From contig JAJEJD010000018.1 of assembly GCA_022828125.1 (NCBI GenBank), positions 124,001-188,000 of the forward strand: a stretch of DNA of 64,000 nucleotides, written 5' to 3'. The notes beneath the pieces are model-generated. The model ran no database searches and was not told where the DNA came from. It saw only the letters and a list, made by a program, of their open reading frames with translations. A program made the translations under genes and the position numbers. Positions 42,792 through 43,592 of this stretch are shown here, in pieces. Position 1 is the first letter of the stretch. The number at the start of each line of letters is the position of its first letter. Source of the DNA: a bacterium. GTDB lineage: Bacteria; UBA8248.

Positions 42792-43454
42792 CTACTCACC
42801 ACCCTCCTGAAACGCGATGCGCTCGCCGGGAGGCTCCACGACGAGGTGGAGTGCCTCGGCCACCCGGCCCGTCAGGTTCCACAGCCCGCATATGAGAGTA
42901 AGCGAAACGAGTTGTTCGGTGGAGAAATGTTTTTGCATGGCCGCGAACGCCGCGTCGTTATTCTTCGCCGTTAAATTTGTGACTTCCTCCGCCCAGCAGA
43001 CCGCGGCTTTTTCTTTCTCGTTAAAGAGGTCGCTCTCCCGCCAGCCGTCCCCCTCCAATAGATTGATTTTCTCCTGCGAGATGCCATGAGCCCGACCGAG
43101 CTCGACGTTGTGCCCGAGTCAGTTGTTGCACTCGGTCAAGATGGCCGTCTTGATGATGACGAGCTGGGCCATGTGGATGTATTCGGGGTCGGTGTCCCGG
43201 TGCTGGACTCTCAGTTTTCCGTCCATGATCTGCCAGCCCTCGACGAAGCCGGGCGCCCAGCCGAGCAGGCGCAGGAAGCGCGACACCTTGCCCCAGCGCT
43301 TCACGCCGCGCTCATAGAGGGGCGCCAGTTCATCGGCCAGGTGCTCGGGGATGTCGTCCGGGTCGATGAGCGGTACGCGGGGGAGGGGGCAGGCCATCAT
43401 CTCCTCGGTGACGCCCATATCCTGAGAGAGGCCGGTGGCTTCGTTTATCGGCAT
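42792..43454 (-). CDS. AhpD/carboxymuconolactone decarboxylase-like protein, probable selenoprotein with in-frame UGA (Sec112)
   Basis: Reading from the ATG at 43454, 111 codons are followed by TGA at 43121-43119. The same frame then stays open for 108 more codons to 42792, with no frameshift. Read through, it gives 220 residues. N-terminal part: DIPEHLADELAPLYERGVKRW. Central part: IHMAQLVIIKTAILTECNN, then the UGA, then LGHNVELGRAHGISQEK. C-terminal part: NEKEKAAVCWAEEVT and STEQLVSLTLICGLWNLTGR. This is a full carboxymuconolactone decarboxylase domain. The UGA is exactly where the second Cys of the CxxC...H redox motif belongs, making Cys109-x-x-Sec112-x-x-His115. A SECIS-like hairpin follows. 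AhpD-like selenoproteins are known as a family. Likely role: thiol/peroxide redox chemistry. A nonsense mutation is the main alternative. Confidence 0.78.
43088..43121 (-). promoter_or_regulatory. Candidate bacterial SECIS element downstream of the in-frame UGA
   Basis: On the minus strand the UGA (43121-43119) is followed by 15 nt, then GAGCUC-GGUC-GGGCUC (43103-43088). It folds as a six-base-pair stem (one U-G pair) with a four-base GGUC loop. The GGUC loop is the same as that of the E. coli fdhF SECIS, and the first loop G lies 22 nt after the UGA, within the range known for bacterial SECIS elements. Such hairpins recruit SelB with Sec-tRNA. Confidence 0.7.
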
Positions 43455-43592
43455 GGTGAAATCCTTTTCTGATGATGCGTGAACGGTTAAGAGTGAACGG
43501 GCGTATTCTCGCGTAATGCTGGGGGTGGGATCAACGGGGGAGTGGATTGCAGGAAGAAATAAGAACCATGAACAAGAAGGAAATTGCCTGCC

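Follow-up and report, generated by a model that had tools for sequence, protein, structure and literature searches.

A predicted AhpD-like selenoprotein gene with an in-frame UGA codon and a SECIS-like hairpin, and its paralogues in a bacterial lineage that is probably phylum UBA8248

The window, the whole stretch of 64,000 nucleotides analysed here, corresponds to positions 124001-188000 of contig C21 in a 3.92-Mb genome (G000), from an uncultured bacterium of marine type, that is 97% complete. Does the TGA at positions 43121-43119 of its minus strand interrupt a gene, or does it encode selenocysteine (Sec)? The minus-strand frame from 43454 to 42792 contains this single TGA and ends with TAG, and its translation, MPINEATGLSQ...TECNN-U-LGHNVELGRAHG...FQEGGE, gives a protein of 220 residues with the UGA at residue 112. 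The ribosome binding site AAAGGA (43462..43467) is located upstream of the ATG, where the orthologues are also rich in purines. The list of open reading frames made with translation table 11 splits the gene (42792..43454) into two pieces, 43454-43119 and 43058-42792, as an earlier sequence-only reading of this locus had expected; the frame, the motif and all the coordinates given in that reading proved exact when the strand was re-read. The predicted Sec112 (43119..43121) lies in the motif C109-N-N-U112-L-G-H115. Cys109 (43128..43130) is the putative partner thiol of the CxxU pair, and His115 (43110..43112), at +3 from Sec, belongs to a CxxUxxHN motif seen both in the sequence and in the family.

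The conservation of the TGA should be noted, since it bears directly on whether the gene is intact. Family members are present in all 17 related genomes. Direct orthologues with 76-97% identity were found in nine other genomes and all keep the single TGA, and the UGA is also kept in nearly all paralogues in the genomes of the family. The dN/dS values are about 0.1 (0.04-0.15) upstream and downstream of the TGA alike, and this equal purifying selection past the TGA rules out a decaying 3' half. In the alignment, homologues carry Sec or Cys at residue 112, as the sequence-only reading had anticipated, and the column of Cys109 is nearly invariant, with Ser in the G016 orthologue group. A nonsense mutation or a base-call error as the origin of the TGA, with only an N-terminal fragment of 111 residues being made, would agree with the two fragments of standard annotation, but it is refuted by the conserved TGA (in all ten orthologues compared, from separate assemblies, and in ancient paralogues) with purifying selection past it, and also conflicts with the covariation of the hairpin described below, so that its probability is negligible.

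The decoding machinery is present in the genome. The sequence-only reading had named selA, selB, selC and selD as the genes to look for, and selA, selB, selD and a tRNA-SeC were all found. The selA gene (508.6 bits with Pfam SelA) and the selB gene (384.5 bits) are in one gene cluster, in which an alpha/beta hydrolase-like gene lies between them and a class-V aminotransferase gene follows selB. The tRNA-SeC has the anticodon tca and scores 75.9 bits. The selD gene (334.9 bits) carries its own in-frame TGA at the active-site position (GG-U-GSK), which independently supports the reading of UGA as Sec. Among 11 sister genomes, tRNA-SeC scores above the family cut-off in all and selB is found in 10. 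Decoding of the UGA as Trp, Gly or Cys through a reassigned code or a suppressor would equally leave the frame open through the TGA. However, TGA is the ordinary stop of 21 of the 44 confident genes checked in the genome, indicating no global reassignment of the code, and the TGA recurs at the redox position together with a SECIS-like hairpin in a genome with complete Sec machinery. Decoding as an ordinary amino acid is thus highly improbable.

The UGA and the SECIS-like element occupy 43088..43121 on the minus strand. The stem of 6 bp (43103-43098 paired with 43093-43088) follows a spacer of 15 nt and closes a GGUC loop (43097-43094) that starts 22 nt after the UGA. This is the GAGCUC-GGUC-GGGCUC hairpin pointed out in the sequence-only reading, and it begins exactly where that reading placed it. 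A hairpin soon after the UGA with a G in a small apical loop is the arrangement by which bacterial selenoprotein genes are recognized. In 50 genes of the clade, the loop starts with GG in all and is GGTC in 40. Among 34 distinct sequences, 82.8% of the cells are paired, compared with 68.2% in shuffled alignments and 29-60% in slid controls, and the covariation score is 0.472 compared with 0.253 after shuffling; neither the score nor the pairing was reached in any of 500 shuffles. The closing base pair is C-G in 17 sequences and U-A in 14. A Leu codon alternates silently, CTC in some sequences and CTT in others, and a change between Arg (CGN) and Gln (CAA) accompanies it; this coupling preserves the closing pair. 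When synonymous codons are shuffled, 1.5% of the trials produce the 6-bp stem seen in the window gene; for the nine paralogues of this genome, the observed sum of stem lengths is reached in 0 of 3000. The hairpin is more than a chance structure, and the encoded amino acids do not by themselves account for it.

The hairpin is absent from the nine Cys-type homologues checked, including two SxxC domains born inside the Sec clade, and in Sec homologues from other phyla hairpins occur at almost the same position, with different loops. RNAalifold alone yields just three pairs with a consensus energy near zero, and the window RNA, when folded as a single sequence, favors another fold. The claim for the hairpin therefore rests on the covariation and on the shuffling of synonymous codons, and folding energy is no part of it. 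With the machinery, the conserved TGA, the dN/dS values and the covarying hairpin, the proposal that UGA encodes Sec has stood, and we encountered neither a lack of the sel genes, nor homologues without Cys or Sec at residue 112, nor an orthologue with TGC or TGT in place of TGA. We consider it nearly certain, judging from these comparisons of sequences, that this is an intact gene of an AhpD-like selenoprotein whose UGA112 is read as Sec. SelB carrying Sec-tRNA(SeC) would recognize the GGUC-loop hairpin past UGA112, leading to insertion of Sec.

The AF2 model, in which Cys is substituted for Sec, has a pLDDT of 88.5. Foldseek with the model and a profile-to-PDB search give 2gmy, PA0269, Bmp8 and AhpD proteins as the best neighbors. 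The complete carboxymuconolactone decarboxylase (CMD) domain described in the sequence-only reading is borne out by the all-helical CMD fold in the model, in Foldseek and in the profile, but not by Pfam CMD, which scores 20.4 bits, just under its cut-off of 23 bits. That reading had also treated the His residue as the classical AhpD one, which does not hold: the classical motif CxxCxxxH has His at +4, whereas here His is at +3 and Asn at +4, and N116 is the residue that aligns with the classical His of 2gmy. TIGR00777 (AhpD sensu stricto) gives no match to the window protein. From these features of the sequence, the protein is classified as AhpD-like, not as a strict AhpD, and the proton relay of AhpD should not be assumed for it.

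None of the curated models tested gives the window protein a score above its cut-off. The protein has no match at E 0.001 to TIGR01926 (cut-off 81.8 bits; paralogues, 29.8-74.1 bits) or to NF041238 AhpD_rel_CFYUT (cut-off 175; paralogues, 20-49.3 bits), and it scores 44.6 bits against the cut-off of 310 for NF053654 GroundWater_YciW. NF053654 and NF041238, both "(seleno)protein" models, are the closest curated Sec-aware ones, with the core domain matched (only in the paralogues for NF041238). The best matches in both sequence and fold are the Cys-type AhpD-like proteins Atu0492 of Agrobacterium (2gmy) and PA0269 (2ijc/2o4d/7xw1), which differ from the window protein in having CxxCxxxH, where Cys takes the place of Sec and His is at +4, and in being without the N-terminal extension.

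AhpD-like proteins with CxxU are, as the sequence-only reading stated, a known bacterial family, recognized since 2005 in the Sargasso Sea and GOS data and listed in recent reviews (PMC9312934, PMC13188914). The accessible text of the metagenome reports gives 27 sequences from the Sargasso Sea (PMC1088965) and 299 and 70 sequences from GOS (PMC2398784), divided into COG2128/YciW "AhpD-like 1" and pfam02627 "AhpD-like 2" (PMC1088965, PMC2398784). As far as that text goes, these proteins likewise have the CMD/AhpD fold, CxxU, a SECIS element right after the UGA, and Cys homologues; it counts reads and families, and many paralogues per genome are not described in it (PMC1088965, PMC2398784).

What reaction would such a protein catalyze? 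In the model, Cys109 and the residue at the Sec112 position are placed at the start of a helix in the all-helical fold. By inference from the family, Sec112 would most likely attack as a selenolate and so reduce a peroxide or another oxidized substrate, Cys109 would resolve it to give a selenenylsulfide, and recycling would fall to a thiol system of the cell. The order PDH genes - ACT - GNAT - gene - Dam - MetE-like is conserved in the genus but not beyond it. The conserved neighbors (GNAT, ACT, PDH and Dam) provide no functional or operon clue, and no ahpC gene or AhpC-type partner was found beside the window gene. One paralogue has peroxiredoxin and superoxide dismutase genes in its neighborhood, 2-3 kb away, and this setting fits peroxidase-type chemistry.

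A selenoprotein of this fold may instead not be a peroxidase at all, and might abstract halogen with its selenol as a Sec version of the tetrabromopyrrole debrominase Bmp8 (6ohi/6ohj), acting on halogenated marine compounds. Bmp8 has the CMD fold in common with the window protein and a similar length, ranks with the best matches in both the fold and the profile searches, and has a PDB entry in which its C82A mutant is bound to tribromopyrrole. Sec is the residue with which human thyroid deiodinase carries out reductive dehalogenation, and among the named relatives are metagenome-assembled genomes (MAGs) that look as if they were derived from sponges. Against this, Bmp8 is a Cys enzyme with a dehalogenation substrate and only 14-18% identity to the window protein, 2gmy, a putative antioxidant protein, scores above it, and no gene cluster for brominated compounds was seen beside the gene. 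Dehalogenation is accordingly regarded as improbable.

Another possibility is that the selenoprotein functions as a disulfide reductase or isomerase, or as a catabolic CMD-type enzyme. Several paralogues adjoin catabolic genes, namely those of TctA transporters, a CoA ligase and aldehyde oxidoreductases, and the CMD superfamily includes non-redox decarboxylases. The CxxU pair is, however, nearly invariant here, and to our knowledge non-redox CMD enzymes need no CxxC or CxxU pair. This alternative is unlikely, though it keeps appreciably more weight than dehalogenation. Peroxidase-type chemistry, by analogy with the family, is the reading that we moderately favor.

The gene is not alone in the genome. 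The CxxUxxHN codon pattern has nine matches, all of which are family members, and the reversed pattern has none; the sequence-only reading was right about the gene itself but missed the eight further paralogues. A scan for coding read-through over the window and eleven other loci flagged eight TGAs: that of the window gene, those of six paralogues and a single false positive. The false positive (40591-40589) was rejected because it is the normal stop of a BrnA-like gene followed by an antisense shadow frame. In G009, G012 and G003, matches to the CxxUxxHN pattern that fall outside the family are not in family frames and were taken as chance.

A CMD search gave three more distant Sec-CMD candidates in the genome, each with an in-frame TGA at CxxU and outside the CxxUxxHN clade: C22:353726-353953 (L163, motif CDYUIDSH), C19:195864-196037 (L162, CNYUGNVR) and C5:117712-117894 (L161, CQPUVGRR). 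Their assignment, made from motif, frame and a local hairpin only, is less certain.

A tree built by maximum likelihood places 42 domains from the lineage in one group (92/86 support), 40 of them with Sec, and many ancient paralogue branches are common to several genera. The CxxUxxHN paralogues would have arisen before the genera of the family split and kept Sec, probably with differing substrates or partners. Outside the lineage, Sec forms with CxxUxxxH occur in G102, G370 and G224, and Cys forms in G348 and, with CxxCxxHN, in G193. The relatives that carry a name are MAGs labelled "Nitrospinota" or "Tectomicrobia", and one of them is isolate UBA8248. UBA8248 is treated by GTDB as its own phylum (PMC10839748), and the lineage is probably this phylum; we found no literature on selenoproteins of Tectomicrobia or Nitrospinota.

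Sec is missing from two clade domains, both with the motif SxxC and both forming the second half of a two-domain fusion in G012. Each fusion is a single frame, on the reverse strand from 1020 in L111 and from 687 in L116, in which a CxxU domain is followed by the SxxC domain. Having lost both Sec and its partner Cys, the second domain is possibly a regulatory or structural half. These two domains, arisen inside the family, are natural before/after pairs. In the L033 orthologue group (G016 and relatives), SxxU replaces CxxU, so that Sec is kept and the partner Cys is lost, implying that this group may recycle by a different route.

AhpD-like selenoproteins themselves are already known; the surprising point is the size of the Sec-keeping paralogue family, about a dozen per genome. 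Ancient paralogues that keep Sec run counter to the common replacement of Sec by Cys. Automatic annotation would break at least nine genes of this genome, plus their counterparts in the lineage, at the UGA, and recognizing these split genes alters the redox biology predicted for an uncultured phylum. We tentatively suggest, as a reading that has a real chance but falls short of an even one, that in this lineage a single AhpD-like selenoprotein radiated into about a dozen Sec-keeping paralogues at 23-60% identity, together with the fusions of CxxU and SxxC domains and an unnamed partner family of small proteins, and that its members act on different peroxides or halogenated compounds. If so, the family would represent a radiation of Sec-based enzymes rather than a lone antioxidant gene. 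Selenoprotein-rich bacteria are mainly anaerobic according to a review (PMC13188914), in which the richest have 57-63 Sec genes, and a lineage with superoxide dismutase and many Sec proteins is a useful test case.

A family of proteins of about 245 residues (MDRxIWAxWYDLPEE...WLHxxHI...RPGxLWAAHY) directly adjoins three of the nine Sec paralogues of this genome, and paralogues in G012 and G003 as well. Its members are L063:4569-5318(-), L064:3211-3948(+) and L065:4490-5212(+), with others in L105, L106 and L098. The family has no Pfam match, and the one member compared with NCBIfam has none there. Judged by eye, it looks like an EthD-type dimeric barrel, and it is a candidate partner of the Sec paralogues. 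Degenerate proteins of the AhpD-like type that lack the redox pair (DTYFANLRSE) also adjoin Sec copies, in L109 (reverse strand, 425-1030) and in L162 (reverse strand, 2483 onward).
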